Source of the DNA: Candidatus Eiseniibacteriota bacterium
Lineage (GTDB): Bacteria > Eisenbacteria > RBG-16-71-46 > CAIMUX01 > WJJG01
NCBI GenBank assembly: GCA_030601305.1
Contig: JAUVTV010000004.1
Coordinates: forward strand, 1-39,054
Reading direction: 5' to 3'
DNA length: 39,054 nucleotides
Shown: piece by piece, positions 7,366 to 26,991 of the stretch
Layout of the letters: each line of letters begins with the position of its first letter
How positions within the stretch are numbered: the first letter of the stretch is position 1
Notes under the pieces: generated by a model
The model's input: only the letters and a program-made list of their open reading frames with translations
Told to the model about the DNA's origin: nothing
Databases searched by the model: none
Program-made: the position numbers and the translations under genes

Positions 7366-8430
7366 ATGCGCGACAGGAGGACCCTGTATGCCCTTTTGGG
7401 CATTGTCTTGCTGAGCATGCTCGCGCCCGTCGTGGCGCAGGCATTGCCCGATCGAGTCGTGCTGTGCGAGGGATACGGAAGGCCTGGCTGAGCGTACTGC
7501 CCTCATGCGTGGTGCGCGCTAGATATGGTCAAGGAGAACTACACCGACGGCGACAATGTCAGGGTAGTCGTGATGGAAGTCCAGACTTCGGGAGGCTACG
7601 CGATTCCCTGGGGACAGAGTCGTACCAGCTGGTATGGCATCTCCGCAGTCCCCCACGCCCGGTTCGACGGTCTCTACTTCGTGAGCGGCAGCTACGGGAG
7701 CTGTACGGCCACCTACAGCCAGTACGCGTATCGGGTCGACTATCGGTTCGATCACACGGACGGCAGCCCGGTCACGATCGAGGGTCACTACGTGATCAAC
7801 CGCGACACGATGACGCTGGAGGCCACGTTCACGCTCGAAGACGTGAATCCTCTGGAGAGCCCGAGGGCCACGATCGCGATCCTCGAGTCAGGTCTCTCGG
7901 TTCCGCCCTACACGGTGAACGATGTCGTTCGCGCGGCTTACGACGAGTACGTGACGCTCGTGACCCAGGGTGAGTATGTCACGCTGTCGCACGAATTCGC
8001 CATCAACCCGGCCTGGAACCTGGACAACGTCGAGTGCATCGCCTTCGTCCAGAAGACGACCCAGAACAAAGAGGTATATCAGGCGAACTACCTCGAGTTC
8101 GGCACCGCCGACGTGTTCGTGGATGATCCCGTTCTGAGCCTTCCGCGTTTCATCGATGTGGCGCCCAACCCGTTCATGCCGCTGCAGGCGGGTGAGGCGG
8201 TCGTGCGCATGGCCATGCCGGAGGCCGGCAGCCGTGACGTTCGGCTCGAGATGATCGATCCCAGCGGCCGCCTGGTGCGGACGCTCTCGCCCAACCGGAC
8301 GGGCGAGACGTGGACCGTCTCCCTCGACGGTCGCGACGAGCAGGGACGCCCGCTCGGCGCCGGGGCCTACTGGCTCCGCATGGTGGGCGCCGGGACGGAC
8401 GAGAGCACCCGTTTCGTAGTGGTTCGTTAG
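7366..8430 (+). CDS. Candidate secreted selenoprotein A: thioredoxin/Omp28-like with UxxC, C-terminal FlgD/Ig-like domain
   Basis: ATG 7366 (SD aaggaggaa). Reading TGA 7489-7491 as Sec gives MRDRRTLYALLGIVLLSMLAPVVAQALPDRVVLCEGYGRPGUAYCPHAWCALDMVKENYTDGDNVRVVVMEVQ... continuous to 8430 (about 354 aa). C-terminus IDVAPNPFMPLQAGEAVVRMAMPEAG...LDGRDEQGRPLGAGAYWLRM...RFVVVR. Confidence 0.75.
7489..7521 (+). promoter_or_regulatory. In-frame UGA (Sec) and candidate bSECIS hairpin, gene A
   Basis: UGA followed by A GCGUAC ... GUGCGC (6 pairs including one G-U) around UGCCCUCAUGCGUG. By eye only. Confidence 0.4.
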
Positions 8431-8519
8431 ATAGCGGCAGAAGTGCCCACGGCAAGCACGCGGGCGGGAGCAGGCCGAGCCGGTCTGTGACCCGCCCGTT
8501 TCCTTTGGAACCAAATGTG

Positions 8520-8526
8520 ATATAAT
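8520..8526 (+). promoter_or_regulatory. Extended -10 promoter (TGTGATATAAT) for gene B / C1A peptidase operon
   Basis: aaaTGTGATATAATt at 8515-8526, 18 nt upstream of the gene B ATG; no good -35 found. Confidence 0.4.
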
Positions 8527-8543
8527 TGCGCCTGGAGGTTCCC

Positions 8544-9626
8544 ATGGAGCGGACGGGGTTGCTCCGGCTCGCGCCGTTTGTCGCGTGCTGGATCGTGGTC
8601 CTGGCCGCACCGCTCGCCGACGCATCCGTCACCAAGGTGGTCTTGGCCGAGGACTTCGGCGCCACTTGGTGAACGACGTGCCATCGGGCTCGGTGCGGGC
8701 TCGGGATCATGGAAGAGGAGTTCGGCGATCAGCTCATCGTCGCCGAGCACCACATCTCGGGTGAGTACCGGAACGCCTGGGCAGACGCGCGGGGCGATTT
8801 CTACGGCGTGGGACCGATCCCCATCGTCTGGTTCGACGGTGTGTACTACGAGTGGGGAGCACAATCCTGCCTGGCCGCCGCGGACGCCTACCGCGGGTGG
8901 ATCAACCAGCGCCTGGATGACACCGGGGGCGTGAGTCCGGTCTCCATCGAGGGCGTCCACTGGTACTACGAGAACCAGATTTGGCTGACCGCCACGTTCC
9001 GGCTCGAGGATCCGGCCGACATCGTCGATGCGCAAGGGTTCCTGCTCGTCATGGAGAACGATCTCTGGTTCGAGTGGGAAACGTACGACCACGGCACCCG
9101 CGCGGCTTACGAGGTCCCGGTCGACCTGACGGAACCGGGCGACCAGGCCTACGTCACGTACACGTTCGACGTCGACCCGGAATGGGATTTGAGCGAGATC
9201 GAGTGCATCGCGTTCCTGCAGACCATGGGCTGCCCACCAGAGGTCTACCAGTCCGCGCGGCTCCCGCTAGGCGCGACCGGATCCGGCGTCGGCGGGCCCG
9301 ACCGCACGCACCACCTGCTCTCCGCCTGGCCGAACCCGTTCAGTGCGAAGTTCTCCGGCGGGAGGCTTGCGTTCAACCTGTCGGCAGTGTCGGACGGTGC
9401 GAATGGGCTCGGGAATGGGCTCGGGAATGAACTCGGGATCGAACTCCTGGATACGGGCGGACGCACGCTGCGCAGCCTTCGGGCTCGACGCGCGGCGCCC
9501 GGTCTGTGGACGGCGGACTGGGACGGGCGCGACTCAGCCGGGCGGCAGCTGCCGGCCGGCAGCTACTGGATCAGGTCCCGCGAGGCACGCGGGGCAGGAG
9601 GGGTGCACCTCATACTGGTGCATTGA
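8544..9626 (+). CDS. Candidate secreted selenoprotein B: thioredoxin/Omp28-like with UxxC, C-terminal FlgD/Ig-like domain
   Basis: ATG 8544 (SD ctggagg). Reading TGA 8670-8672 as Sec gives MERTGLLRLAPFVACWIVVLAAPLADASVTKVVLAEDFGATWUTTCHRARCGLGIMEEEFGDQLIVAEHHISGEYRNAWADARGDFYGVGPIPIVWFDGVYYEWG... continuous to 9626 (about 360 aa). Confidence 0.82.
8670..8706 (+). promoter_or_regulatory. In-frame UGA (Sec) and candidate bSECIS hairpin, gene B
   Basis: UGA ACGACGUGC CAUCG GGCU CGGUG: 5-bp stem (one G-U) with apical loop GGCU; G in the first loop positions fits the described bSECIS consensus. Loop starts about 14 nt after the UGA. By eye only. Confidence 0.45.
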
Positions 9627-9649
9627 GGGGAGACCGAGAGGAGGATGAG

Positions 9650-11806
9650 ATGACATCTGGGGACCATGCGCCTTGCAGGCGCGTCTCGCCCGCGGCGGGG
9701 CGCTTCCTTTTGCTGAGCTTCTGCCTCTTGCTGGGCCTGACCCAGCCGGCGTGGGCGGACGGCATACAGCGGCTGACTCCGGAAGAGGAAGCCGCACGCA
9801 TCGAACGCATTCGCGCGCGCATCGAAGCCCTGGGGTACGACTTCGAGGTGGGACCGACCTCGCTCACCAGCGTTCCCTGGGAGGTGTTCAAGGAGCGCTA
9901 CCTCGGCCTCGAGCTTCCCGAGGGATGGCAACCACGTCCGATCGTCGACGATCACGGCGCGGGTGACCGCGACCTGCCTGCGCGCTGGGACTGGCGCGAA
10001 CACGGGCCGGTGCCCGGCATCCGCCACCAGGGTGCTTGCGGGAGCTGTTGGTGCTTCTCCGCCGCGGCGGCGTTCGAAATGGCGATTCTGCGGACCGAGG
10101 GGTTCGAGGTCGACATCAGCGAGCAACAGGGCCTCTCGTGCAACACCGGCGGCAGTGGCTGCGGTGGGGGCTGGATGGACGACGCCTACGACGTCTGGGA
10201 CGGTTACGGCGCCTACGCCGAGGAGGACTTTCCCTACGAGGCCAACGACGGCATCGCCTGTCCGGGCGACACGTATCCCGCCATCGCGCGCATCGCATCG
10301 GTGCACAGCCTGGGCAACTCGGTGAGCCAGATCAAGCAAGCGATCTACGACCACGGTGCGGTGTCGACCACGGTGATGGTCTACGACGACCTGGTCGCCT
10401 ATCGCGGCGGATGCTACGAGCACAGCTGCAGCTGGGAGCTGAACCATGCGATCGCGCTCGTCGGATGGGACGACGACTACTGCGATGGGCAGGGTGCCTG
10501 GCTCATGCAGAACAGCTGGGGCACCGACTGGGGCATCGACGGCTACGCCCACATGAAGTACGGCACTGCCTGCCTCGGTGAGTACGCGACGTGGGTCGAA
10601 TACGTGGCAATCGCCAATCTGCTGGGCATCAACCATGTGCCGCTCGCCGACACCGAGAACACGAGCGACCCGTACGAGATGATCGCGGAGATCATCGCGA
10701 CCGGCGGCAGCGTCGACCTCGGTGCAAGCTACCTCGACTATCGCATCGACATGGGCTCATGGGTGCAGGTGCCCCTCAGCCACGTCTCGGGTGACGAGTA
10801 CGTCGCCCTGATTCCCGCCCAGTCGGCGGGCACGAAGATCGACTACTACCTGCACGCCGAGGACACGGTCGGAAACGAGAAGACCGTGCCGATGTGGGCC
10901 CCGGACGACACCTACCCGTTCGTCGTCGGCACCTTCGAGCAGATCGTCTTCGAGGACTTCGAGACCGAGTCCGGTTGGACGGTGGGCTACGAGGGTGACG
11001 ACGCGACAGCCGGGATCTGGGAGTGGGGTGATCCCGAGCACACCGACAGCAACGGGCGCACCGTGCAGCCCGAGGACGACCACACGCCCGCGCCGGGCCG
11101 CTACTGTTTCGTCACCGGTGCCGCGGCCGGGTCGGGCGCCGGATCCTACGACGTCGACGGCGGCCGCACGACGCTCCTCTCGCCGGTCTACGACCTGAGC
11201 GAGTACGAGCTGGTGGTCGTCGACTACCGCCGCTGGTACACGAACCGCCGCGGATCGGACCCCTACGAGGACATCTGGGAGGTGAGCGTCCGTTCCGGTG
11301 CCTCCGGTTGGGTGCCCATCGAGTACACCAGCACGTGTCGCGAGAACTGGAGCTACCAGGTCCACATCTTGAAGGACTTCGTCGACATGGGCCCCGAGGT
11401 GCAGCTGCGCTTCGTGGCCTCCGACGAGGACGGCGGCTCGCTGGTCGAGGCGCTCGTGGATGACCTCGAGCTGCGCGGCGTCCGCTCCGGGACCTCAGAT
11501 CTCGCGGATCGCACGCCCGGGCAGGTTCGCGAGCGCGTGATGCTCTGTGCCGCGCCCGTGCCGACCCACTCGCGCGCCGAGGTCGCCTTCTACCTGCCGC
11601 AGAGCGGCACCGCGCGCGTCCAGCTCCTCGACAACGGCGGGCGCCTGCTGCGCGTGCTGCACGCGGGGAGCGCACCGGCGGGGTGGACCCGTCTCGTCTG
11701 GGACGGCCGCGACGGCCAAGCGCGGGCGGTGCCCTCGGGGCTGTACCATCTGCTCGTCGAAACGGATCAGGGGGTCGCGACCCGGAGCCTGCCGGTCCTG
11801 CGGTAG
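9650..11806 (+). CDS. Secreted C1A (papain-like) cysteine peptidase with C-terminal FlgD/Ig-like domain
   Basis: MTSGDHAPCRRVSPAAGRFLLLSFCLLLGLTQPAWA signal peptide; LPARWDWREHGPVPGIRHQGACGSCWCFSAAAAFE; ELNHAIALVGWDDDYCDGQGAWLMQNSWGTDWG; C-terminus WDGRDGQARAVPSGLYHLLVETDQGVATRSLPVLR. ATG 9650 after gagaggagg. Confidence 0.93.
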   Translation: MTSGDHAPCRRVSPAAGRFLLLSFCLLLGLTQPAWADGIQRLTPEEEAARIERIRARIEALGYDFEVGPTSLTSVPWEVFKERYLGLELPEGWQPRPIVDDHGAGDRDLPARWDWREHGPVPGIRHQGACGSCWCFSAAAAFEMAILRTEGFEVDISEQQGLSCNTGGSGCGGGWMDDAYDVWDGYGAYAEEDFPYEANDGIACPGDTYPAIARIASVHSLGNSVSQIKQAIYDHGAVSTTVMVYDDLVAYRGGCYEHSCSWELNHAIALVGWDDDYCDGQGAWLMQNSWGTDWGIDGYAHMKYGTACLGEYATWVEYVAIANLLGINHVPLADTENTSDPYEMIAEIIATGGSVDLGASYLDYRIDMGSWVQVPLSHVSGDEYVALIPAQSAGTKIDYYLHAEDTVGNEKTVPMWAPDDTYPFVVGTFEQIVFEDFETESGWTVGYEGDDATAGIWEWGDPEHTDSNGRTVQPEDDHTPAPGRYCFVTGAAAGSGAGSYDVDGGRTTLLSPVYDLSEYELVVVDYRRWYTNRRGSDPYEDIWEVSVRSGASGWVPIEYTSTCRENWSYQVHILKDFVDMGPEVQLRFVASDEDGGSLVEALVDDLELRGVRSGTSDLADRTPGQVRERVMLCAAPVPTHSRAEVAFYLPQSGTARVQLLDNGGRLLRVLHAGSAPAGWTRLVWDGRDGQARAVPSGLYHLLVETDQGVATRSLPVLR

Positions 11807-12024
11807 GCCGGTGAGCCTTCACCCGATCTTGTATCCAAGATAAGAAGCCCGCTGTGGCACGACCGTGAGGGGCGTGCTAGGATCGGCCCCGTTCTACCCG
11901 GTAGTTCAGGGTCCGGTCGCGCATTTCTGTCCGCAGCCCAAGCAGGTGAACTCTCTGACGCGCGGGCATCCGGGTGACGGCATCCCCCCGGGCACGCTGC
12001 GGCCGGCGCTCCGAGGAGGCACAT

Positions 12025-12402
12025 ATGATGTACCGTTGGCACGCCGGCTATGTGGCCTGGCTGCTGAACCGGATCACCGGCATCCTCATTACCTTCTACC
12101 TCGTCATGCACATCTGGGTCATCCACCACCTCGCCCATGGACCGGAGAAGTACCGCATGGTCATGGACTTCCTCGGAAGCCCGATCTTCGTGTTCTTCGA
12201 GATCTGCATCATCGGCGTGGTGCTCTACCACATGATGAACGGGATCCGGATCGTGCTCGTCGACTTCGGCAACGGCGCCTGGACGCACAAGACCCTCTTC
12301 TGGGTGGTCATGGCCATCGGCGTGGTGCTCTTCGTGCTCTGCATCTGGGAGCTCGCCGGAGCGTTGCTCGGCCTGAGCCACGCGGTGGCGGCAACCCACT
12401 AG
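12025..12402 (+). CDS. sdhC: Succinate dehydrogenase cytochrome b556 subunit
   Basis: MMYRWHAGYVAWLLNRITGILITFYLVMHIWVIHHLAHG...EICIIGVVLYHMMNGIRIVLVDFG; first gene of the sdh cluster. Confidence 0.9.
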   Translation: MMYRWHAGYVAWLLNRITGILITFYLVMHIWVIHHLAHGPEKYRMVMDFLGSPIFVFFEICIIGVVLYHMMNGIRIVLVDFGNGAWTHKTLFWVVMAIGVVLFVLCIWELAGALLGLSHAVAATH

Positions 12403-12468
12403 CGGCGCCATGCGATCTCCGAACGCACACCGGAGGCCCGCAACCCGCGAGCGACAAGGGGAGGAGGC

Positions 12469-12828
12469 ATGAAAGAGAGAGGAATCGGATCGGGTGGCGC
12501 ACTTGCCTGGTTCCTGCAGCGATTGACGGGGATCGTGCTCGTGCCGATCCTGCTCGTGCACTTGCTCACCATGCATCGCTACCACGAACACGGGCTGGCC
12601 TGGGATCAGGTCACGCGCCTGATGAGCAACCCGTACTGGAAGGTGCTCGAGATCTCGTTTCTCGTCCTGGCGCTGTACCACGGACTGAACGGGATCTACG
12701 CGATCATCCAGGACTACGTGAAAGTCGCCTGGGTGCGTCTTGCGATCTTCAGCCTGGTGATCCTCGCCGGGCTGGTGCTTTTGGTGTTCGGTATCGTCAC
12801 CGTGCTTTCGATCAAGGCTCCCGCCTAG
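12469..12828 (+). CDS. sdhD: Succinate dehydrogenase membrane anchor subunit
   Basis: [30 protein letters not shown]...[24 protein letters not shown]; between sdhC and sdhA. Confidence 0.87.
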
Positions 12829-12895
12829 CGACCGAAGACGCCTCGGCAACGCGCCGGGGCGCTCCTCGCGCGGGATGGAACTCGAGGAAGGGGCC

Positions 12896-14647
12896 ATGAA
12901 GCTCGACGTGACCTATCACAAGCACGACGTGGTGGTTGTCGGCGCGGGGATCGCCGGTCTCTACGCGGCGCTCAAGACGAGCGGCGAGGTCGACACGGCG
13001 GTCATCAGCAAGGTCTACCCCACGCGCTCGCACTCGGGGGCCGCGCAGGGCGGATGTGCCGCCTCGCTGGGCAATATGATGGAGGACCACTGGGAGTGGC
13101 ACATGTACGACACCGTGCGCGGCTCCGACTACCTGGGTGACCAGGATGCCCAGGCGCTGCTCGTGCGCGATGCCGTACAGGTGATGTACGAGATGGAGCA
13201 CCTCGGCGTACCGTTCGACCGCACCGAGGAGGGCAGAATCGCCCAACGCCCCTTCGGCGGGCACTTCGGCAACTTCGGCAAGTCGCCGATGAAGCGTTCC
13301 TGCTATGCCGCCGACCGCACCGGACACGCCCAGCTCCACGCGCTCTACGAGCAGTGCGTGAAGAACGAGGTGCGCTTCTACAACGAATTCTACTCGCTCT
13401 TGCTGATCATGAAGGGCGGAACCTGCCTGGGCCTGGTTGCCTGGGACATCATCCGGGGCGGCCTGCACGTCTTCCACGCCAAGGCGGTGCATCTGGCGAC
13501 CGGCGGCTACGCGCGCTGCTGGAAGATCACCTCGAACGCGATGGCCAATACCGGCGACGGGCTGGCGCTCGTCATGCGCCAGGGATTGCCGCTGGAGGAC
13601 ATGGAGTTTGTCCAGTTCCACCCGACCGGTGTCTGGAAGCACGGCATGCTCGTCTCCGAGGCGGCCCGCGGCGAGGGCGGCTATCTGACCAACGACAAGG
13701 GCGAGCGCTTCATGAAGGAGTACGCCAAGGAGAAGATGGAGCTTGCCCCGCGCGACGTCGTTTCCCGCGCCGTGCAGACCGAGATCAACGAAGGACGGGG
13801 CATCGGCGGGCAGGACTGCGTCCACATCGATCTGCGCCACCTCGGCAAGGAGAAGATCTTGACGCGCCTGCCGCAGGTGCGCGAGTTGGCCTTGAAGTTT
13901 CTCGGGCGCGACATGATCACCGACCCGGTTCCCATCCAGCCCACGGCGCACTACTCGATGGGCGGCATCCCGGTGAACCTGGACACGCTGGTGCTGGGCG
14001 ACAGCCAGAAGGGAACCGTCCCGGGATTGTACGCCTCGGGCGAATGCGCCTGCGTCTCGGTGCACGGCGCCAACCGGCTGGGGACGAACTCGACGCTTGA
14101 GTGCGCCGTGTTCGGTCGCCTGGGCGGCCTCAAGATGCTCGACTATGTGCGCCAGCACTCGGGGCACGAGGACCTGCCCGCAGACGCGGCCGAGATGGCC
14201 CGCGAGGAGATCGAACACCTGCTCTCGACCGCCGGTACGAAGAGCGGCGTGCGGTCGGCGGACTTGCGCACCCGCTTGCAGGAGACGATGTCCGAGAACA
14301 TGGCCGTCTACCGCAACCAGGGGGATCTCGAGAAGCAGGTGAAGATCTGTCAGGAGCTGCGCGAGCAGTGTCGTCAAGTGGCGATCGACGACGGGGGTCT
14401 CTGTGCCAACACGGATCTGATCGAAGCGGTCGAGCTGGGACACATGCTCGACTACTCCTACGTCATCGCGCGCTGTGCCCTCGAGCGGACCGAGTGCCGC
14501 GGGGCGCATTGGCGGACGGATCACCCGGGCCGCAACGACAAGGAGTGGCTCAAGCACACGATGGCCTGGCTGGAAGGCGATCATGTCCGCCTCGAGTACA
14601 AGCCCGTCGTGATCACCCGGTTCCAGCCGGAGGAGCGGAAGTACTAG
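12896..14647 (+). CDS. sdhA: Succinate dehydrogenase flavoprotein subunit
   Basis: [90 protein letters not shown] 12896. Confidence 0.96.
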
Positions 14648-14671
14648 GGCTGTCAGGTAAGGGGAGATGCG

Positions 14672-15373
14672 ATGGAGCGGACGCTGCGGGTCTTCAGATT
14701 CAATCCCGAGACCGGCCAGGAGCCACACTACGACACCTTCACCATCGAGGTCGAAGATTCGTGGACGGTCTTGGACGCGCTCAACGAGATCAAGTGGCAT
14801 CACGACGGATCCCTGTCCTACCGGCGCTCCTGTCGTCACGGGATCTGCGGCTCGTGTGCCATGATGGTCAACGGCAAGAACGAGGCCACCTGTGAGAAGC
14901 CGCTCTCCGCGCTGAAGGGCACGATCACCGTCGAGCCGCTCAAATCGTTCCCCGTGATCAAGGACCTGATGGTCGACCAGGAGGACTTCTTCGAGAAACT
15001 GCGCCTGGTCAAGCCGTGGTTGATCAACCACAAGGCGCCCCCGACCGACAAGGAACGCCTGCAGAGCCCTGAAGACCGCAAGATCATCGACGGAACCTGG
15101 GAGTGCATTCTCTGCGGGGCGTGTACCTCATCGTGTCCCGCGTTCTGGGACAACCAGGGCTTTCTCGGGCCGGCAGCGCTGCTGAAAGCTTTCCGCTACG
15201 TGGGCGACACGCGCGACGAGGGTCTCGACGAACGCGTCGGCATCCTCGACAGCAAGATCGGCGTGTGGCGCTGTCACACGATCTTCAACTGCGTGGAGGC
15301 GTGTCCGAAGTCGCTCAATCCGACCGCCGCGATCGTCAAGCTGCGCCGGCGGCTCATTCAGGAGAAGCTGTAG
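14672..15373 (+). CDS. sdhB: Succinate dehydrogenase iron-sulfur subunit
   Basis: CRHGICGSCAMMVNGKNEATCEKPLSAL; CILCGACTSSCPAFW; CHTIFNCVEACPKSLNPTAAI. Confidence 0.96.
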   Translation: MERTLRVFRFNPETGQEPHYDTFTIEVEDSWTVLDALNEIKWHHDGSLSYRRSCRHGICGSCAMMVNGKNEATCEKPLSALKGTITVEPLKSFPVIKDLMVDQEDFFEKLRLVKPWLINHKAPPTDKERLQSPEDRKIIDGTWECILCGACTSSCPAFWDNQGFLGPAALLKAFRYVGDTRDEGLDERVGILDSKIGVWRCHTIFNCVEACPKSLNPTAAIVKLRRRLIQEKL

Positions 15374-15430
15374 GCGGGACGCGCGCCGCGGCGCGTCATT
15401 CCCCTGGCCCTCGCTTGAGGAGGTGTTGCG

Positions 15431-16474
15431 TTGGCAGATCGCACCGGTGGCTATGGGCGATTGCTCTTGCTATGCGCGGGCTACTTCGTGGGCTACGCGC
15501 TCTTTGGGGTCGCCCTGAAGTGGCTGCTGGACACACGACCGGGCTTCCCCGGGATGCCCGGGATGGAGACCCTCTTCAATACCACCGTCGGGGGCATGTC
15601 GATCTGCCTCCTGGTCGTTCTGGTGTTCTGGTGGCCCGGCCGACTGAAAAGCACGCTCTCCCCCATCTTCGGCGGCCGTCTGCCGGGCGAATACGCTTGG
15701 CTCATCCCCTCCGGGATCTGCACCGGCTTCGTCATCCCGACCACAACCTTGATGTACACCTACGGCTACTCGGTGATGGTGGCCATGGTGCTCATGCGCG
15801 CGTCCCTGATCATCGTCAGCCGGGTCGTCGACGCCATCCTGATCCGACAAGGCCATCTGGACAAGGAGGTCTACTGGCAGGAAAACGCCGCGGTTGTCGC
15901 TGCCGTCGCGGCCGTGAGTGTCGTCGTGTTCGCCGCCGGGCCGAAAGATTTCCAGTTCTTCGAGTCACCCGCGGCCATGATCACCATGGCGTTGTACATC
16001 GTCCCTTACGCACTGCGCATCTACATCTTGAATCGGTTCAAGGTGAAGGTAGATCATAGGGCGATCTTCGGCATTGAGCAGATATTCGCAGCTTTGACGG
16101 TCCTGGTGGTTTTGTTCGCCGGCATCTTGGCATTCCAGGCGGGATGGCAGCCGCCACAGATGGCGGGCGTGGTGCACGCGTTCTTCCATCCGTCATCTAC
16201 GGCCATCCTGATCGGCGTACCCTACGGGATCATCGCGTTTTTCTCCGTATTCATCTTCCTATACAGAGGCGGCACGGCAACCTTCAATACTACGGTGAAC
16301 CGATTGACCTCGCTGCTGGCCGGAACGGTGGCCACGTTGTTGTTCCACTTCCTCTTCCAGGGCAAGGCGGTTCGGGACTATCAGTGGGGGGCGCTGCTGA
16401 TCGTCTTCGCCGCCATCGGTTTCCTGGCCTGGGCCGGGAGAAGGCGCGCGGCCGAGGTCGGGACCGTGCGCTAG
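15431..16474 (+). CDS. DMT/EamA-like multi-pass membrane transporter
   Basis: About 10 hydrophobic segments, e.g. LLLLCAGYFVGYALFGVALKWLL, MSICLLVVLVFWW, GALLIVFAAIGFLAWAGRRR. Confidence 0.65.
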   Translation: MADRTGGYGRLLLLCAGYFVGYALFGVALKWLLDTRPGFPGMPGMETLFNTTVGGMSICLLVVLVFWWPGRLKSTLSPIFGGRLPGEYAWLIPSGICTGFVIPTTTLMYTYGYSVMVAMVLMRASLIIVSRVVDAILIRQGHLDKEVYWQENAAVVAAVAAVSVVVFAAGPKDFQFFESPAAMITMALYIVPYALRIYILNRFKVKVDHRAIFGIEQIFAALTVLVVLFAGILAFQAGWQPPQMAGVVHAFFHPSSTAILIGVPYGIIAFFSVFIFLYRGGTATFNTTVNRLTSLLAGTVATLLFHFLFQGKAVRDYQWGALLIVFAAIGFLAWAGRRRAAEVGTVR

Positions 16475-16506
16475 CAGCCAGGATGACTTCTGCCACGGGT
16501 TGCTAG
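16471..16506 (+). repeat. Dispersed hairpin element, copy 1
   Basis: CTAGCAGCC (16471-16479) / GGTTGCTAG (16498-16506), 9-bp stem with one G-U, 18-nt loop aGGATGACTTCTGCCACG. Confidence 0.75.
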
Positions 16507-16691
16507 GCTCGGATCGCTCATCGGGCGCCAACCGCTCATGCCCGTAGATTTGCTCAGGATCCAGAGTACTTCTACTCGCGATCGTGAGTAATCGGTTAGC
16601 TCCTTGGAGTTCAATATGTTCCAGGGACCCATCCGGGCTGAGATCAGGAAGCGTCTGGAGCCCGGCGGGAGAATGACTCGTTCGATAGGAA

Positions 16692-16729
16692 GATCCCTCC
16701 GCCACCCGATGATCACCGCCGGAGGGATC
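16692..16729 (-). terminator. Intrinsic-terminator-like hairpin after the VWA gene
   Basis: Perfect 10-bp inverted repeat gatccctccg / cggagggatc directly 3' of the minus-strand stop; followed on the minus strand by TTCCTATC. Confidence 0.55.
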
Positions 16730-16732
16730 CTA

Positions 16733-18859: not shown

Positions 18860-19491
18860 GACGATACCTCCTCTGTCTCGGCGCCGCGGAGCCGCGCCGA
18901 CGATGTCCCGGCGTTCCTGCGCGGGCGCAAGAAGTCCCGCATCTTCTGGCGGGCGCGGAAATGGTGGACGCGGGCTGTCGACTCGCTGCACCGGGCGGCC
19001 TCGGCGACTTGCCGAAAGCTCAGGCCTTCCAACTCGCGAAGGAGGAAGATGGCGCGCTGACGACTCCCGAGGCGGGCGAGGGCCTGGTGCAGACGACGGC
19101 GTGCGTCCAAGTCGTCCGGCGCACAGCTGACCTTGCGCACGTGCGCGGCAAGCTGTTGCAAGACCCGGCGCCGGCGCGATAGCTCACGCTTCCAGTCGCG
19201 TGCGCGGCGTATGGCGATGATCGCGAGGTAGGCTTCGAGGGGCCCTGTACCGTGGTAACGGTGGATGCTTTTCAGGGCAGAGAGGTAGGTCTCTTGAAGA
19301 AGCTCGAGGGCCTCTTCTCGCTGCCCCGTATGGTAGACGAGCAAGGCGAAGAGCCGGTCGCGGGTTCGGTCGTAGATTTCGCGCCAAGCCTTCTCGCACC
19401 GGTCCGCAGCCCTTCTTGCCAGCGCCAGGTCCTGCGGGCAGTGGACGGCCTCCCCAACAGCCGCGCTCGCATGTGGATCGATCACCTCCAT
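18856..19491 (-). CDS. ECF-type RNA polymerase sigma factor (sigma-70 family)
   Basis: Region 2 YHTGQREEALELLQETYLSALKSIHRYHGTGPLEAYLAIIAIRRARDWKR; region 4 LARLGSRQRAIFLLRELEGLSFRQVAEAARCSESTARVHHFRARQKMRDFL. Confidence 0.92.
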   Translation of the reverse strand: MEVIDPHASAAVGEAVHCPQDLALARRAADRCEKAWREIYDRTRDRLFALLVYHTGQREEALELLQETYLSALKSIHRYHGTGPLEAYLAIIAIRRARDWKRELSRRRRVLQQLAAHVRKVSCAPDDLDARRRLHQALARLGSRQRAIFLLRELEGLSFRQVAEAARCSESTARVHHFRARQKMRDFLRPRRNAGTSSARLRGAETEEVSS

Positions 19492-19651
19492 GCCGCACCC
19501 CCTGTTTCACAGATGCAGTCGCACGAGCAGAACGAATCGTTTACTCGAATCTGCAATCACTGGAGGGGGTGCCAGAGGAGACCTGGCATCCGTTGAGACT
19601 TCTGATGGTAGTGTAGGTGGGTGGATCCGGGTTGGTGAGCGAGATCGGGGA

Positions 19652-20125
19652 CTACTTCGCCGGGGGCAGCCCGAGCACGCGATACCGCTGGCCGTCGTAG
19701 TCGACGCGGAACTCGGCCGTCACGTCATCGCTCCCCCGCCGCTTGAACGTGACCGTGACGAGGAAGCAGTACGGCTCGACGAGACGCACCTCGCGGATGG
19801 CAAACGCGCGGCAACAGTCCGGATGACTGCGCATGTAGGCTTCGAGGAGCGCGGCGACATCGGATGCGGGTTGCAGGCCGCCTGCGTCTTCAGGCGCGGC
19901 GGCCAACTTGAGCATCTCGCGCGGCCCGGCGAAGAGGCTTGCGGCCTGCGCGTACGCGCCTCGGTCCAGGCACGCGAGATACTGCTGGACCACTTGGCGT
20001 GCCATGGTGCACTTGTCGTAGCCTTCGACCTCCGGGTCGCGAGTGCAGCCCCGCGCCATGAGCAGGAGCATCCCGCAGGTGGCCAGGATCAACGCTCGTC
20101 TCGTCCGTCCGTTTCGCATGCCCAC
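19652..20125 (-). CDS. Hypothetical secreted/lipoprotein-like protein
   Basis: RRALILATCGMLLLMARGCTRDPEVEGYDKCTMARQVVQQYLACLDRGAYAQAASLFAGPREML...: hydrophobic N-terminus followed by Cys, then an NTF2/SnoaL-like pattern. Confidence 0.65.
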   Translation of the reverse strand: MGMRNGRTRRALILATCGMLLLMARGCTRDPEVEGYDKCTMARQVVQQYLACLDRGAYAQAASLFAGPREMLKLAAAPEDAGGLQPASDVAALLEAYMRSHPDCCRAFAIREVRLVEPYCFLVTVTFKRRGSDDVTAEFRVDYDGQRYRVLGLPPAK

Positions 20126-20266
20126 ATCCGCTTCTCGAATTGCAACCAGGGCTGGCGGTTAGAACCGAGCCTCCCCGCCGGCACCCTCACCCTGTAAGAT
20201 CGTTCATCCGGCCGGGATCTGTAGAGGGGATCGACCGGCGCCGCGGAGCGCAGACGGGGGAGAGAC

Positions 20267-20827
20267 ATGGAGCGGATCGCACGGTTCCTGTACGAGATAG
20301 GGCATCTGAAACGGGTCGCCCGGTCGGGGTGGTGGGTCGCGGGTGTCCGCCAGCCGGAATCCGTGGCCGAGCACACCTTCCGCTGCCTGTGGGTGGGCTA
20401 CTTCCTCGCGCTGGACGAAGGCGCCGATCCCGCCCACGTGCTCCTCATGTGTCTGGCGCACGACATCCAGGAAGCCCGCATCAACGACCTTCACAAGGTG
20501 GGGCAGGCATACCTCGATGTGAAGGCGGTGGAGCCGAAGGTGTTCGACGATCAGGTAGACGGTCTGCCGTCGGCGGATGAGCTGCGCCGACTGCGGGAGG
20601 AGTATGAGGCCGGCGAGACGCTGGAGGCGCGCATCGCGCGCGATGCCGACCGTCTCGAGTGCGCCTTTCAGGCGCTGGAGTATGTCAACGAGGGTCACGA
20701 GCCGTGCCGGCCTTGGTTCATCAACACGGCTCCGGTCCTGAAGACCGATGCGGGGAAGAAGCTGTACAAGGCGCTGGCAGCATCCGATCCGAACGACTGG
20801 TACCGGGAGCTGCCACGCGTTCCGTAG
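20267..20827 (+). CDS. HD-domain phosphohydrolase (YfbR/HDDC2-like)
   Basis: MERIARFLYEIGHLKRVARSGWWVAGVRQPESVAEHTFRCLWVGYFLA...LLMCLAHDIQEARINDLHKVGQAYLD. Confidence 0.88.
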   Translation: MERIARFLYEIGHLKRVARSGWWVAGVRQPESVAEHTFRCLWVGYFLALDEGADPAHVLLMCLAHDIQEARINDLHKVGQAYLDVKAVEPKVFDDQVDGLPSADELRRLREEYEAGETLEARIARDADRLECAFQALEYVNEGHEPCRPWFINTAPVLKTDAGKKLYKALAASDPNDWYRELPRVP

Positions 20828-20849
20828 TGGCGTAAGCGAGGTGAGCGCG

Positions 20850-21872
20850 ATGTCGCAGGAAGGAATCGAAGCCCGGTGGTGGCACACCGATGGCGAGTCC
20901 GTCGTCTGCGATCTCTGCCCGCGCGCGTGCCGCTTGCGCGACGGTCAGACCGGCTTCTGCAATGCGCGCCGCAACACCGCGGGGCGGCTGACGACCTTGA
21001 CCTATGGCCACCCCGTGGGCCTCGGGATCGATCCCATCGAAAAGAAACCGCTGTTTCACTTCCTTCCGGGATCGCCCGTGCTGAGCTTCGGAACCGTGGG
21101 TTGCACGCTGGCGTGTCGCTTCTGTCAAAACTGGAGCATGAGCCAGTCGGATGGGCGCGCCGGATCGCGCCGCGTGGCCCCGGAGGAGATCTTGGAGCTG
21201 TTGCGTCGCGATGAAGTACCGTCGGTCGCGTACACGTATAACGAGCCGACCGTCTTCGCGGAGTACGTCGTGGATGTCGCCCGCCTCGCCCGGGAGAACG
21301 GCATCCGCAACGTGATGGTGTCGAACGGCTACATCTCACCGCAGGCCCGCGATGAGGTCTTGGCCCAGATCGACGGCATCAACGTGGATCTGAAGGGCTT
21401 CAGCGAGCGATTCTACACGCGCGAGACGCGGGCGCATCTCGCACCGGTTCTAGACACGCTCGAGTGGATCGGCAAGCGGCCCGATATCTGGCTCGAGATC
21501 ACCACGCTGCTGATCCCCGGCCTCAACGATTCCGAGAAGATGCTGACCGAGGAGTGCGACTGGATCATCGGACATCTGGGCGTGGATGTACCGCTTCACC
21601 TCACCGCCTTTCATCCCGCCTACCAGATGCTCGATCGTCCGCGCACACCGCCCGAGATCCTGCAACGCGCCCGGGATACCGCGCGGAGCAAGGGGCTGCG
21701 CTACGTCTACACCGGCAACGTGGCCGATTCCGAAGGTCAGAGCACGCTGTGCCCGGCGTGCGAGGCGATCGTCATCGTACGCAGCGGGCACAGCGCACGA
21801 ACCGTGGGGCTCGAGAACGGTTGTTGCCGGGCCTGCGGGCAGGAAATCGCCGGCGTGTTCGCTGCCGATTGA
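20850..21872 (+). CDS. amrS: AmmeMemoRadiSam-system radical SAM enzyme (PflA-like)
   Basis: CDLCPRACRLRDGQTGFCNARRNTAGRLTTLTYGHPVGLGIDPIEKKPLFHFLPGSPVLSFGTVGCTLACRFCQNWSMSQS (CxxxCxxC cluster). The ORF-track start at 20748 overlaps the HD gene; ATG 20850 (or GTG 20841) is more likely. Confidence 0.92.
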   Translation: MSQEGIEARWWHTDGESVVCDLCPRACRLRDGQTGFCNARRNTAGRLTTLTYGHPVGLGIDPIEKKPLFHFLPGSPVLSFGTVGCTLACRFCQNWSMSQSDGRAGSRRVAPEEILELLRRDEVPSVAYTYNEPTVFAEYVVDVARLARENGIRNVMVSNGYISPQARDEVLAQIDGINVDLKGFSERFYTRETRAHLAPVLDTLEWIGKRPDIWLEITTLLIPGLNDSEKMLTEECDWIIGHLGVDVPLHLTAFHPAYQMLDRPRTPPEILQRARDTARSKGLRYVYTGNVADSEGQSTLCPACEAIVIVRSGHSARTVGLENGCCRACGQEIAGVFAAD

Positions 21873-21893
21873 CCGGGTGAAAGGAGACTGATC

Positions 21894-22292
21894 GTGGAGA
21901 CCTTCAGCGTTCAAACCCAGGAGCACGCCGACCTCGTCGACGTCACCGATCGCGTGCAGGCCATCGTGCGTGACGCGGGCGTGAGCTCGGGCGCCGCGCT
22001 CGTCTACGTCCCGCACACGACGGCGGGGGTGACGGTCAATGAGAATGCAGATCCCGCGGTCGTGCATGACGTGCTGGCCGATCTCGACCGCCTGGTGCCC
22101 TGGAAAGAACGTTACTACCAGCACGGCGAGGGCAACAGCGCGGGACACACGAAATCCAGCTTGGTCGGCTGCGATCAGTGGATCCCGATCGAAAACGGGC
22201 GGCTCGTTCTGGGGACCTGGCAGGGGATCTACTTCTGCGAATTCGATGGGCCGCGGACGCGCAAGGTGCACGTTCAAGTTTTGAAAGGCTAG
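21894..22292 (+). CDS. yjbQ: Secondary thiamine-phosphate synthase enzyme family (YjbQ/UPF0047)
   Basis: ALVYVPHTTAGVTVNENADPAVVHDVLADLDRLVPW...YYQHGEGNSAGHTKSSLVGCDQWIPIENGRLVLGTWQGIYFCEFDGPR. Confidence 0.92.
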   Translation: METFSVQTQEHADLVDVTDRVQAIVRDAGVSSGAALVYVPHTTAGVTVNENADPAVVHDVLADLDRLVPWKERYYQHGEGNSAGHTKSSLVGCDQWIPIENGRLVLGTWQGIYFCEFDGPRTRKVHVQVLKG

Positions 22293-22298
22293 GTACCC

Positions 22299-24839
22299 GT
22301 GCCGGTGGCATTCCCGAACAATCCAAGCGAGTTCTGTATCACGGACGTCGGCAGCACGACGACGAAGGCGTTTCTCTTTCAGAAGCGCGACACATGGCGC
22401 ATCTTCCATCGCGAGGCGGCGACCACGGTCGAGAAACCCGACGAGGACGTCACCATCGGCGTGACTGAAGCGCTTCGGGCGCTCGCGGAGGAGTCGGGCA
22501 GTCAGCTGATCAAGGACGGCGTCCCCGCGATTCCGTACCTCTCCACGTCGTCGGCGGGCGGAGGGCTCGCGATGGTGGTGACCGGTCTCATGCGCAGCGT
22601 CACCAGCTACAGCGCGGAGCGGGTGGCCCTCGGCGCGGGTGCCATCGTGCTCGACGTGATCGCCATGGACGACGGCCGCACGCCCTACGAGAAGGTCCAG
22701 GCGCTCATGCGGCTGCGGCCCGACATGGTGTTGCTCGCGGGTGGCTTCGACGGCGACGCCCTGAGCGGCCCGGTCTTCCTCGCCGAACTCATCTGCGAGG
22801 CGGGGCTGCGTCCCAAGCTCAGCCGCGAGGCACATCTTCCCGTGGTCTTCGCCGGCAACAAGCACGCGCGCCATCTCGTCGCCGACACGCTGGGTGACCG
22901 TTTCATGTTTCACCCCGTGGCCAACATTCGCCCGTCGAGCGAGATCGAAGATCTCGATCCCGCGCGCACGGCGATCCACGACCTCTTCATGGATCACGTG
23001 ATGTCCCAGGCGCCGGGATACGAACGGCTCGTCTCCTGGGTGAGCGCGCCCATCCTGCCGACACCGGCGGCCTTCGCCCGGATTCTCGAGATCGCCTCGC
23101 GCGAGCTGCGCAGGAAGATCCTCGCGATCGATATCGGCGGCGCCACGACGGACGTCTTCACCGCCGAGAACGGCACCGTGTTCAGGACCGTGAGCGCCAA
23201 TCTGGGCATGAGCTATAGCGTGCTGAACGTCGCGCGCACGGCTGGCATCTCGGCGATCCGCGAGCTTCTCCAGAACGGCATGAGCGATCGCGAGCTGTGG
23301 GACCGCATCGGTGACAAGTACCTGCAGCCCACGTGTCTGCCCACGGATGAGACCGGCGTGCGCGTCGAGTGGGCCACGGCGGCGGTCGCCATACGCGAGG
23401 CGGTGCGCGATCACCAGCGTGTGCGCGCCGGGATCTCGCTGAGTCGCGGCAAGGAGGAGCTGACCATCCGGGGCCTGCTCGATCGCGGCGGCGGCAAGCA
23501 ACACGAAACCGGAGAAGTCTTCAAGCTGGACGAGTACGACCTGGTGATCGGTAGCGGGGGCATCCTCTCGCACTCGCCGCGCGAGGCGGCGGTGACGATG
23601 ATGATCGATGCTCTCCGGCCGCGCGAGTCCGTCACCCTTGCCGTGGACAGCGCGTTCGTGTTTCCGCACCTGGGTGTGCTCTCCGTGCTGAACCCCGAGC
23701 TCGCGCTGCAGCTCTTCCAGGAGCTGGGTCTGGTGCGGCTCGGAACCGTTGCGGAGGTGAGGACCGAGCGCGCCTCGATCGACGCGCGGTCCGCCGTGCC
23801 TCCGGCCAGGGAGCGGCGGGCCGCCGCGAGAGAGCGCATCGAGCGGGGCGTGATCCGCTTGCGGCGGGAGCTGGCCGTCCCCGGTGATCTGTTCGTACGC
23901 AATGGCGCGAGCGTCAAGGCCGACACACTCATCGCGCGCAGCACGCGCCTTTTCCGGCGGCCCTTCTTCCTCGAGATCGCGCGTGTGCTGGGGATCCCGC
24001 CCGAAGAGGTTCCCGCGTGTGTTCTGAAGAAGACGGGGGACACCGTGGAACGCGAGGATCTCGTGGCGCGGCACAAGGTGAGTCTCATCAAGACCAAGGA
24101 GTATCGCTCGCCCGTGGCCGGCGTGGTGGAGCGTCTCCTTCCGTCGGGCACGCTGGTGATTCGCGAGAAGCCGGAGAGCGCCGCGGCACGGGCGGTCATC
24201 CAGGTTGCACAGGATCTCGCCGTCCATCCCGATCAGATTCGCCCGTACGTGAAGGTCGAGGTTGGACAGAGCGTGGAACGCGGACAGGTCGTCGCCTCGT
24301 TCCTGCGGCCCGGGACGGTGCGCCGGAGCTGCGCGCCGCTGCGCGGCAAGGTCAAGGAGATCAACTACGACTACGGGCTCATCAACATCGAACCGCTCCG
24401 CGAAGAGCTGGAGGTGCGCGCGTGGATGCCGGGGACGGTGGAAGCGCTCACCGATCGGGGATGCACGGTATCCGGTCGCGGCATCCGCATGGAAGGCGTG
24501 TGGGGTCTGGGGGGAGAGATCTCCGGTCGATTGGCGCTCGGTGCCCCGGAGTCCGGGTCCGTGCTGGTCACCGACTTCGCCGACCGCGAAACATTGGAAA
24601 CAGTCGCAGATCGGGGAGGCCGCGGTCTCATCACGGCGGGCCTTCACCTCGCGGACGTGCTGGAGATCGATCCGGGCTACACCATCGTGGTCACCGAGGG
24701 GTTTGACCGGCGCGCGATGGATCCGGGTCTGAAACAGGAGCTGGAACGCAACGTGGGTCGGGTTGTACTCCTGGACGGAACCACCGAGCTGCGCGTGGGC
24801 GTACGGCGACCGATCATGATCTTGCCGGAGGAGGATTGA
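22299..24839 (+). CDS. MutL-like (methylaspartate mutase accessory protein-like) ASKHA-fold protein with biotinyl/lipoyl-like C-terminal region
   Basis: FCITDVGSTTTKAFLFQKRDTWRIFHREAATTVEKPDEDVTIGVTEAL...LLAGGFDGDA...ILAIDIGGATTDVFTAENGTVFRTVSANLGMSYSV; C-terminus YRSPVAGVVERLLPSGTLVIREKP. Confidence 0.83.
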   Translation: MPVAFPNNPSEFCITDVGSTTTKAFLFQKRDTWRIFHREAATTVEKPDEDVTIGVTEALRALAEESGSQLIKDGVPAIPYLSTSSAGGGLAMVVTGLMRSVTSYSAERVALGAGAIVLDVIAMDDGRTPYEKVQALMRLRPDMVLLAGGFDGDALSGPVFLAELICEAGLRPKLSREAHLPVVFAGNKHARHLVADTLGDRFMFHPVANIRPSSEIEDLDPARTAIHDLFMDHVMSQAPGYERLVSWVSAPILPTPAAFARILEIASRELRRKILAIDIGGATTDVFTAENGTVFRTVSANLGMSYSVLNVARTAGISAIRELLQNGMSDRELWDRIGDKYLQPTCLPTDETGVRVEWATAAVAIREAVRDHQRVRAGISLSRGKEELTIRGLLDRGGGKQHETGEVFKLDEYDLVIGSGGILSHSPREAAVTMMIDALRPRESVTLAVDSAFVFPHLGVLSVLNPELALQLFQELGLVRLGTVAEVRTERASIDARSAVPPARERRAAARERIERGVIRLRRELAVPGDLFVRNGASVKADTLIARSTRLFRRPFFLEIARVLGIPPEEVPACVLKKTGDTVEREDLVARHKVSLIKTKEYRSPVAGVVERLLPSGTLVIREKPESAAARAVIQVAQDLAVHPDQIRPYVKVEVGQSVERGQVVASFLRPGTVRRSCAPLRGKVKEINYDYGLINIEPLREELEVRAWMPGTVEALTDRGCTVSGRGIRMEGVWGLGGEISGRLALGAPESGSVLVTDFADRETLETVADRGGRGLITAGLHLADVLEIDPGYTIVVTEGFDRRAMDPGLKQELERNVGRVVLLDGTTELRVGVRRPIMILPEED

Positions 24840-24840
24840 G

Positions 24841-25794
24841 GTGAAGAGGGGAGTGCGCGAACTCATGGCGGCGTGCGCGGGTGCGATGCTCTGCGGAAGC
24901 GCTGCCGGGGCCGAGGGTGTAACCTGGAGCGATCTCACGCTCGCCCAGGCGCTGGCCAAGGCCGACGATCTCGCCACGCTGGTGATGATCGATGTCTATG
25001 CCAGTCACTGCATGCAGTGCAAGGACATGGATCGTGAGGTGTGGGAGACGTCCGAGGGTGTCGAACTGGCCGAAGGGCTCATCATGCTGCGCATCCCTTC
25101 CGACAAGCCGGAGGGCCGCGCGCTGCAAGACAACTACCCGGTTCTCGGTTTGCCGCTGGTGATTCTGCTCGAGGCGGACGGCACCGAGAGCGGGCGCATC
25201 GTGGGCTATCGAACGCCGGAGCCGTTCTTCGAGCAGGCGCGAGCCCTCAAGGCGGGCTTCGATCCGCTTCCCGAGATGGAGGCCGAACTCGAGGCCCAGC
25301 CCACGTCACAGAAGCTCACCCTCGAGATCCTCGAGCAGTACCTCTACCGCCAGCGCGAAGCCGAAGCCGAATCTCTCCTCACGCGTCTTCTCGAGCTGGA
25401 TTCGAGACGGATCTCCACCTACGCCACCAAGGCTCTGGGGCTGACAGCCCGCTACTACGACTACTTCAAGCATGACAGCGAGAAGAGCCAGAAGTACTGG
25501 CGGATCGCGCTCCACGACTACGCCCAGTCGAGAGCCGTCAACGGCGCGCTCAAGGCGACCTACGAGTACCACCGGCAGAAGCGAACACTGACGCTGTGGA
25601 TCGAAATGGTTTGCGCCGTCGCGGACGCCAACCCCGAGGCCTCCACCTTGAACGCGGGGATTGCCCGTTGGGCCGTCCGGGGCAACCTGAGCCATCCGTG
25701 CCTGGCCGCGGCTGCGAGGCGCGCGCACGCCCTGGGGGCCAAGCCGGCGATCTTCGATTCACTGGCCATTGCTCTCGAGGGCATGCCCGACTGA
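24841..25794 (+). CDS. Secreted thioredoxin-like protein with CxxC (Cys form)
   Basis: GVTWSDLTLAQALAKADDLATLVMIDVYASHCMQCKDMDREVWETSEGVELAEGLIMLRIPSD...NYPVLGLPLVILLEADGTESGRIVGYRTPEPFFEQ. Confidence 0.85.
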   Translation: MKRGVRELMAACAGAMLCGSAAGAEGVTWSDLTLAQALAKADDLATLVMIDVYASHCMQCKDMDREVWETSEGVELAEGLIMLRIPSDKPEGRALQDNYPVLGLPLVILLEADGTESGRIVGYRTPEPFFEQARALKAGFDPLPEMEAELEAQPTSQKLTLEILEQYLYRQREAEAESLLTRLLELDSRRISTYATKALGLTARYYDYFKHDSEKSQKYWRIALHDYAQSRAVNGALKATYEYHRQKRTLTLWIEMVCAVADANPEASTLNAGIARWAVRGNLSHPCLAAAARRAHALGAKPAIFDSLAIALEGMPD

Positions 25795-25905
25795 CCTTCG
25801 CTCGAAGCCGGCTTCCCGAGCAAAGGTCAGTCCGCAGCGAAGGCCGTCCGCCTTCCCTCCTCCCGCTTCGTGATGTACAATGGTGAGAGCGAAGGAGGTG
25901 CCCAT

Positions 25906-26991
25906 ATGTCCAGAGTTGGCTCGGTCGCAGGACTCACCCTTCTCCTGGCCTTCACCTTTACTGCGGGCGAGGCGCTCGCAGCGGAGCGGATGGTCATCCT
26001 CGAGTATTTCACCAGCACCACGTGAGGCGGCTGCGCCGGAGCCAGCCGTGAGCTGGACGAACTCGCCGCCGACTACGCCGACCGGGTCGCTGCCATTGCC
26101 TACTACACGGGTGGCTCAGACCCCTTCTACACGCAGGAAGGCTCTGATCGCTGGAACTTCTATCCGCCCCCCTACTGGTACTTGAGTACTTGGTACTACG
26201 CGTGGCCGTGGCTGTGGATGGACGGCAACAAGCATCCCGGGTGGCAGTACGGTACATGGGAGGGCTATCTCCAGGCACAGCTTCCCGTGGAGTCCGAGCT
26301 TGTCATGGATCTCGAGGGCGGCTACGACAGCGGTGCGCGCATGGGTTGGCTCGGCATCTCCATTCACAACGTGGGAACCGAGACGCTCTCGGGCGACCTG
26401 CAGTGTGTTCTCACGGAGTCCGGCTTGTACTACCATGCGCCTAACGGCCTTGACTGGCACCATCACGTGATGCGCGACATGATTCCCACCGAGACCGGAA
26501 CGCCCGTGACGATCGCCCCGGGGGAGACCGAGTACATCGCGCACCAGTTCATCCTCGACTCGTCCTGGGACGAGACCGAGTGCGAGTTCGTCTGCTTCGT
26601 GCAGCACGATTATCTCCAGCCGGACAGCACGAAAGAGGTCTGGCAGGGCGCCAAGATCGCTCTCACCGAACTGGTGGGCGGCGCGGCGGACGTCTCCGAG
26701 GACCCTGTCGCGAATCCCTTCGCTCTCCATCCGTGCAGTCCCAACCCCGGTCGGCCGGGCACCGAGATCGCCTTCGACCTGCCGCGGGAGTGCGAGGTGA
26801 GCCTTGCGGTCTACGACGTGACGGGGCGCCGGGTGATCACGCTGTACGAGGGCGTGCGCGCGGCCGGCAGTCACGCCGTCGCATGGCGCGGCTCAGGCGA
26901 GAACGGAGAACCCGTTCCTTCGGGAATGTACTTCTACCGGTTGGATGCCGGCGCATTCAGCCGGACACGGCAGGTGTTGATCGCGAGGTAG
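25906..26991 (+). CDS. Candidate secreted selenoprotein C: thioredoxin/Omp28-like with UGGC, C-terminal FlgD/Ig-like domain
   Basis: ATG 25906 (SD gaaggaggtg). Reading TGA 26023-26025 as Sec gives MSRVGSVAGLTLLLAFTFTAGEALAAERMVILEYFTSTTUGGCAGASRELDELAADYADRVAAIAYYTGGSDPFYTQEGSDRWNFYPPPYWYLSTWYYAWPWLWMDGNKH... continuous to 26991 (about 361 aa). Confidence 0.85.
26023..26049 (+). promoter_or_regulatory. In-frame UGA (Sec) and candidate bSECIS hairpin, gene C
   Basis: UGA G GCGGCU GCGCCGGAGCC AGCCGU: 6 pairs (one G-U) with loop beginning G. By eye only. Confidence 0.45.

Follow-up and report, generated by a model that had tools for sequence, protein, structure and literature searches.

Three genes in a contig from a Candidatus Eiseniibacteriota bacterium raise the question of whether the TGA codon that interrupts each of them is read as selenocysteine (Sec, U), and to which family the products would belong. 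The window, which is the whole stretch of 39,054 nucleotides analysed here (contig JAUVTV010000004.1 of assembly GCA_030601305.1), is contig 143 of a source genome assembled to 2.24 Mb in 219 contigs and 69% complete. Judged from the sequence, the three genes very probably are selenoprotein genes in which the internal UGA is read as Sec.

Three frames interrupted by TGA

Gene 1 (7366..8430, plus strand) encodes a putative exported Omp28/thioredoxin-like selenoprotein of 354 aa with a UAYC motif, and its TGA is codon 42 (7489..7491, plus strand) in the context GRPG-U-AYC. Gene 2 (8544..9626, plus strand) encodes a putative protein of the same type with 360 aa and a UTTC motif; here the TGA is codon 43 (8670..8672, plus strand), in the context GATW-U-TTC. 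The third putative protein, encoded by gene 3 (25906..26991, plus strand), has 361 aa and a UGGC motif, with the TGA at codon 40 (26023..26025, plus strand) in the context TSTT-U-GGC. The C-terminus is of the FlgD-Ig type in the three products and also resembles a type IX secretion system (T9SS) tail in the last one. The region between the tandem genes 1 and 2 and gene 3 (9627-25905) contains intervening genes outside the selenoprotein feature.

Each frame harbors one in-frame TGA followed by 312-321 open codons, and translation with TGA as U runs uninterrupted to a normal stop. The terminator of gene 2 is itself a TGA, which is a true stop. By eye, a GGAGG-type Shine-Dalgarno sequence and a signal-peptide-like N-terminus ending in AxA were recognized in all three genes. 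The initial annotation had described the genes with these TGA codons, contexts, Shine-Dalgarno sequences, and signal peptides, and the frames reopened as it had described them. It had also held that standard gene calling mis-splits the genes, and mechanical calling indeed returned only truncated open reading frames (7525-8430, 8709-9626, and 26182-26991). As the standard code calls only the parts after the TGA, the signal peptide and the catalytic motif are lost from all three genes.

The window was scanned for stop codons with an ATG 30-60 codons upstream and at least 300 open codons downstream. The scan resulted in four TGA sites, three of them in genes 1-3, one TAG site, and no TAA site. 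Long open frames are common in GC-rich DNA; thus, openness after the TGA is weak evidence and no proof of readthrough. We rejected it as sufficient proof, since one extra TGA site and one TAG site pass the scan as well. The homologues and the RNA signal, both read from sequence, raise the case for readthrough far above chance.

Homologues, machinery, and genetic code

Profile searches covered 47 genomes and found the family in 12 of them, 11 belonging to one order. Translation covered 42 homologues, including one on a contig of Phycisphaerae. A single alignment column holds TGA in 26 homologues, from 11 Candidatus Eisenbacteria genomes, and Cys in the other 16 (15 TGC and one TGT), of which 15 lie within the phylum and one in Phycisphaerae. 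Thus, the Cys homologues that the initial annotation had suggested looking for occur exactly at the TGA column. For gene 1, the column is TGA or Cys in 41 homologues. The nearest Cys relative of gene 2, in genome G004, reads VVLAEDFGATWCVDC; VVLAEDFGATW-U-TTC in gene 2 stands against VVLAEDFGATW-C-VDC in G004 and VILAEDFTATW-C-PYC in G003. The TGA of gene 3 also occurs in its orthologues from G004 (TSTTUYGC) and G010 (TSTTUGGC).

These alignments bear on the explanation that the TGAs are assembly errors or that the genes are decaying pseudogenes. A fragmented genome of 219 contigs that is 69% complete gives this explanation some room. However, the recurrence of TGA at one column in 26 genes from 11 separately assembled genomes, with differently named assemblies, argues strongly against it, and this recurrence also answers the assembly-error test proposed in the initial annotation. 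Furthermore, the matched stretches of the 42 homologues contain no TAA, no TAG, and no second TGA, and the synonymous sites downstream are constrained toward a hairpin, as described below. We regard this explanation as extremely improbable. One TAA seen inside a homologue (G001 C172) was discarded, as it falls outside the domain when the family's own profile is used.

The Sec/Cys label must change five times on a tree of 38 rows, and well-supported branches force at least three of these changes. Gene 3 falls in a clade apart from genes 1 and 2, whereas gene 1 groups with TGA homologues from other genera. Separately, G010 (75% complete) carries seven TGA-bearing family members, an unusually large expansion.

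The source genome harbors matches above the curated cut-offs to selA (547.6 bits), selB (336.3 bits), and selD (412.9 bits), and it encodes a tRNA-Sec with the anticodon UCA. All four components named for checking in the initial annotation (selA, selB, selC, and selD) were therefore found. Among the 11 genomes with TGA versions, selB was present in 10. No selB match was obtained, at the threshold used, in G015, which carries Cys versions only.

A change of the genetic code, by which TGA would specify a different amino acid, such as the Trp or Gly of certain other bacteria, would also let the homologues read through the in-frame TGA. Nevertheless, TGA terminates seven of the 27 genes in the window, gene 2 included, which indicates that the code is not reassigned. 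The sole internal TGA lies at the position of the homologues' catalytic Cys, and the Sec machinery is complete; a code change is accordingly hard to credit.

Hairpins downstream of the TGA

In the bacterial model of the selenocysteine insertion sequence (SECIS), the loop has 3-9 nt, contains an early G, and lies 16-37 nt past the UGA (PMC13188914). The test for bacterial SECIS elements also takes a stem of 4-16 bp and a minimum free energy of at most -7.5 kcal/mol. The loops, stems, and spacings of genes 1, 2, and 3 all lie within these ranges. The SECIS-like hairpin of gene 1 (7507..7519, plus strand) is GCGTG-GTG-CGCGC, with the loop starting 20 nt past the TGA. In gene 2 (8684..8704, plus strand), it is TCGGGCTCG-GTG-CGGGCTCGG, with the same 20-nt spacing and -11.0 kcal/mol. 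The hairpin of gene 3 (26042..26056, plus strand) is CCAGC-CGTGA-GCTGG, starts its loop 21 nt past the TGA, and has its CGTGA loop repeated in both orthologues (G004 and G010). The minimum free energies over 48 nt are -14.8, -16.3, and -21.3 kcal/mol for genes 1, 2, and 3, respectively; the core stem alone reaches -7.5 in gene 2 only. Rfam returned nothing at gathering scores, either in the window or around selA.

Across the family, a hairpin of the model type was found in 25 of the 26 TGA genes, with the loop always starting at +18 to +23, and 24 of the 26 had -4 kcal/mol or better. In 1000 trials, we exchanged codons for synonymous ones sampled according to codon usage within the family, and the mean hairpin energy of the TGA genes was matched in none of them (z=-8.3). 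At the Arg position feeding the loop, 23 of 23 TGA genes use CGG, CGT, or AGG, against a background of 43% for Arg codons ending in G or T. By comparison, CGC is the commonest background Arg codon and also the choice of the two aligned Cys genes of this type. The bias has p=4e-9 if the genes are assumed to be independent; as they are related, the figure is a guide only. In gene 1, Trp replaces the loop Arg, and the GG is kept because TGG is retained. The GGTG loop (8691-8699 in gene 2, and in homologues) overlaps the codon of the third conserved Cys (UxxCx4C), so the protein and RNA constraints share bases. Codon 6 pairs with codon 9 in 17 of the 17 TGA genes whose codon 8 encodes Cys; this pairing was dropped as non-discriminating, since the two comparable Cys genes show it as well.

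Under the selenoprotein reading, SelB, the Sec-tRNA(UCA), and the hairpin about 20 nt downstream would together recode the single internal UGA to Sec. Behind the signal peptide, the product would have an N-terminal thioredoxin domain with Sec-x-x-Cys, an Ig domain of the Omp28 type, and FlgD-Ig as its C-terminal module.

Several observations weigh against this reading. The homologues are mutually related, so their counts do not represent independent events. The presence of selB is necessary but little informative because the gene is widespread (above cut-off in 37 of the 47 genomes of the phylum), and TGA-bearing G007 (68% complete) gave no selB match. The core stems are rather weak in gene 1 (-4.3 kcal/mol) and gene 3 (-6.2 kcal/mol), and the Cys genes also display a slight hairpin excess (z=-2.2). 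Finally, the evidence for selenium in the trio consists of sequence and predicted structure.

Known relatives, predicted fold, and surroundings

The initial annotation had proposed exported, Omp28/thioredoxin-like selenoproteins with UxxC in place of CxxC, all of which is supported, and possibly a new selenoprotein family, which is not supported as stated. An Omp28-related selenoprotein family is already catalogued as NF045500 (Omp28_seleno, named Omp28-related selenoprotein in NCBIfam), and the claim of novelty is lowered accordingly. In an inventory from 2026 that covers 119 selenoprotein families of prokaryotes, NF045500 corresponds to the hypothetical protein GOS_C with UxxC (PMC13188914). 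GOS_C was reported in 2008 with 74 Sec and 312 Cys sequences and a Trx-like fold (PMC2398784).

Compared by score and family description, the trio shares with NF045500/GOS_C the UxxC motif, the Trx-like fold, and the occurrence of both Sec and Cys forms. One may thus suppose that the genes are plain members whose novelty is sequence divergence only, to which we give somewhat less than an even chance. All 16 aligned family members match NF045500, genes 1 and 2 score higher on it than on any other NCBIfam model, and the match spans residues 29-249 of gene 1 (E=3.7e-13). However, the scores were 49.6, 44.4, and 33.3 bits for genes 1, 2, and 3, and 33-75 bits across the family, against a cut-off of 200 bits that none of the 47 genomes passes; the trio was not filed under NF045500 for this reason. 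The C-terminal FlgD-Ig module is a further difference. Gene 3 scores better on the Omp28 outer membrane lipoprotein model NF033782 (54.8 bits, cut-off 150) than on NF045500. The Pfam model Omp28 (PF11551, gathering score 34.9 bits) gave 41.5 bits for gene 3, above the cut-off, 26.8 bits for gene 1, and no match for gene 2. Unlike the Omp28 lipoproteins, the trio stays below the NF033782 cut-off, carries Sec for Cys, and has no visible lipobox. The DsbA-like, DsbG-like, thiol:disulfide interchange, and other UxxC selenoproteins (PMC13188914, table 1) also place UxxC in a thioredoxin fold, but they form separate Pfam/NCBIfam families and none outscores the Omp28 models. On these sequence comparisons, a divergent, uncatalogued Candidatus Eisenbacteria branch beside GOS_C/NF045500 is supported, an entirely new selenoprotein family is not supported, and the trio and NF045500 are related and appear to work alike.

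For the mature product of gene 2, an AlphaFold2 model (mean pLDDT 80.9) predicts a thioredoxin fold whose first long helix begins at the Sec/Cys pair, together with an Ig-like domain and a C-terminal module of lower certainty. The best fold match of this model is HBP35 of Porphyromonas gingivalis (PDB 5y1a, E=7.2e-14), likewise an exported thioredoxin domain with a C-terminal domain, although HBP35 is Cys-based and only 12% identical over the alignment (TM-score ~0.55). Recombinant HBP35 has demonstrated thioredoxin activity, which is abolished by mutating both active-site Cys residues, and it also binds hemin (PMC2907840).

The most likely role of the trio would be that of thiol/selenol-disulfide oxidoreductases outside the cytoplasm, in which Sec would attack as the nucleophile and the Cys at position +3 from it would be the resolving residue; we consider exported oxidoreductases of this kind likely. 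Alternatively, the Sec might chiefly bind a metal or a heme ligand instead of exchanging disulfides. The hemin binding of the nearest solved structure, HBP35, favors such a role, as does a 2026 review in which some bacterial selenoproteins are predicted to bind metals. Conversely, the invariant Pro66 and the placement of UxxC where the first helix of the thioredoxin fold begins are typical of oxidoreductases, and the thioredoxin activity of HBP35 needs its two Cys, which makes ligand binding as the chief role unlikely. Overall, a Sec-recoded, exported, thioredoxin-fold UxxC oxidoreductase related to GOS_C/NF045500 is highly probable; recoding and fold are predicted from sequence and model, and we infer catalysis, substrate, and display. 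DsbD-type membrane proteins, found in four of five family genomes and not seen in the incomplete source genome, are a possible electron supply.

Pfam FlgD_ig was detected in all three genes, with gene 1 at 26.9 bits, slightly below the 27-bit cut-off, in agreement with the FlgD/Ig-like C-termini annotated initially. The sortable C-terminus of the same annotation is plausible only. In its favor, the T9SS tail model TIGR04183 (cut-off 23 bits) scored 27.9 bits in gene 3, with no match reported for genes 1 and 2, and SprA exceeded its cut-off in three of five family genomes, so that close relatives do have a type IX route. Against it, the source genome (69% complete) had no SprA above cut-off and weak local matches only. 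Surface display of the three products through a type IX-like route, as read from these sequences, is therefore tentative. That selenothioredoxins secreted by the type IX route and displayed at the surface have radiated throughout Candidatus Eisenbacteria, with up to seven Sec copies in one genome and at least three Sec/Cys switches, and form a subfamily apart from GOS_C, is more doubtful still. In the open-licence papers searched, we found no work tying Eisenbacteria to type IX secretion, none on Eisenbacteria selenoproteins, and none joining Omp28-related and selenoprotein.

The trio provides putative cases of selenocysteine in proteins exported by members of a little-studied phylum. Routine gene calling strips these proteins of their catalytic motif and signal peptide, and their branch escapes the current family model. 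The compact Sec/Cys pairs, two of them adjoining on one contig (G004 C172), offer material for studying the circumstances in which proteins outside the cytoplasm use selenium in place of sulfur.

Further observations concern the genomes and other genes of the window. SprA-like translocon genes above the TIGR04189 cut-off are L154 (G004 C106) and L155 (G002 C152). In G000, a partial genome of 2.2 Mb, the part of the family profile that covers the FlgD-Ig C-terminus is matched at about 75 further places, which suggests a large cargo set on one sorting or anchoring route. Directly 3' of the tandem genes 1 and 2 lies a C1 cysteine protease of the papain family that likewise has FlgD-Ig at its C-terminus (9650-11806). 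At 22299-25794 of the window, a MutL-like gene (PF13941) precedes gene 3, as one also does in G004 before the orthologue (L150, G004 C181); a Thioredoxin_7 gene lies between it and gene 3, and an amidophosphoribosyltransferase-like frame occupies this place in G004. A secreted protein with cysteine-rich repeats (CCFDNGSCQLLFEDDCETLGGTWHPEEPGCDPNPCP) at 34738-35847 had no Pfam match at E<=1e-5. The gene at 16733-18991 (minus strand) encodes a YfbK-type von Willebrand protein with a TonB-plug-like stretch in its N-terminal part (EVIRLQAGVIAKGGELQFRGGRAGEVQYQVDGVPV), and a sigma-factor-like gene (18856-19491) adjoins it.

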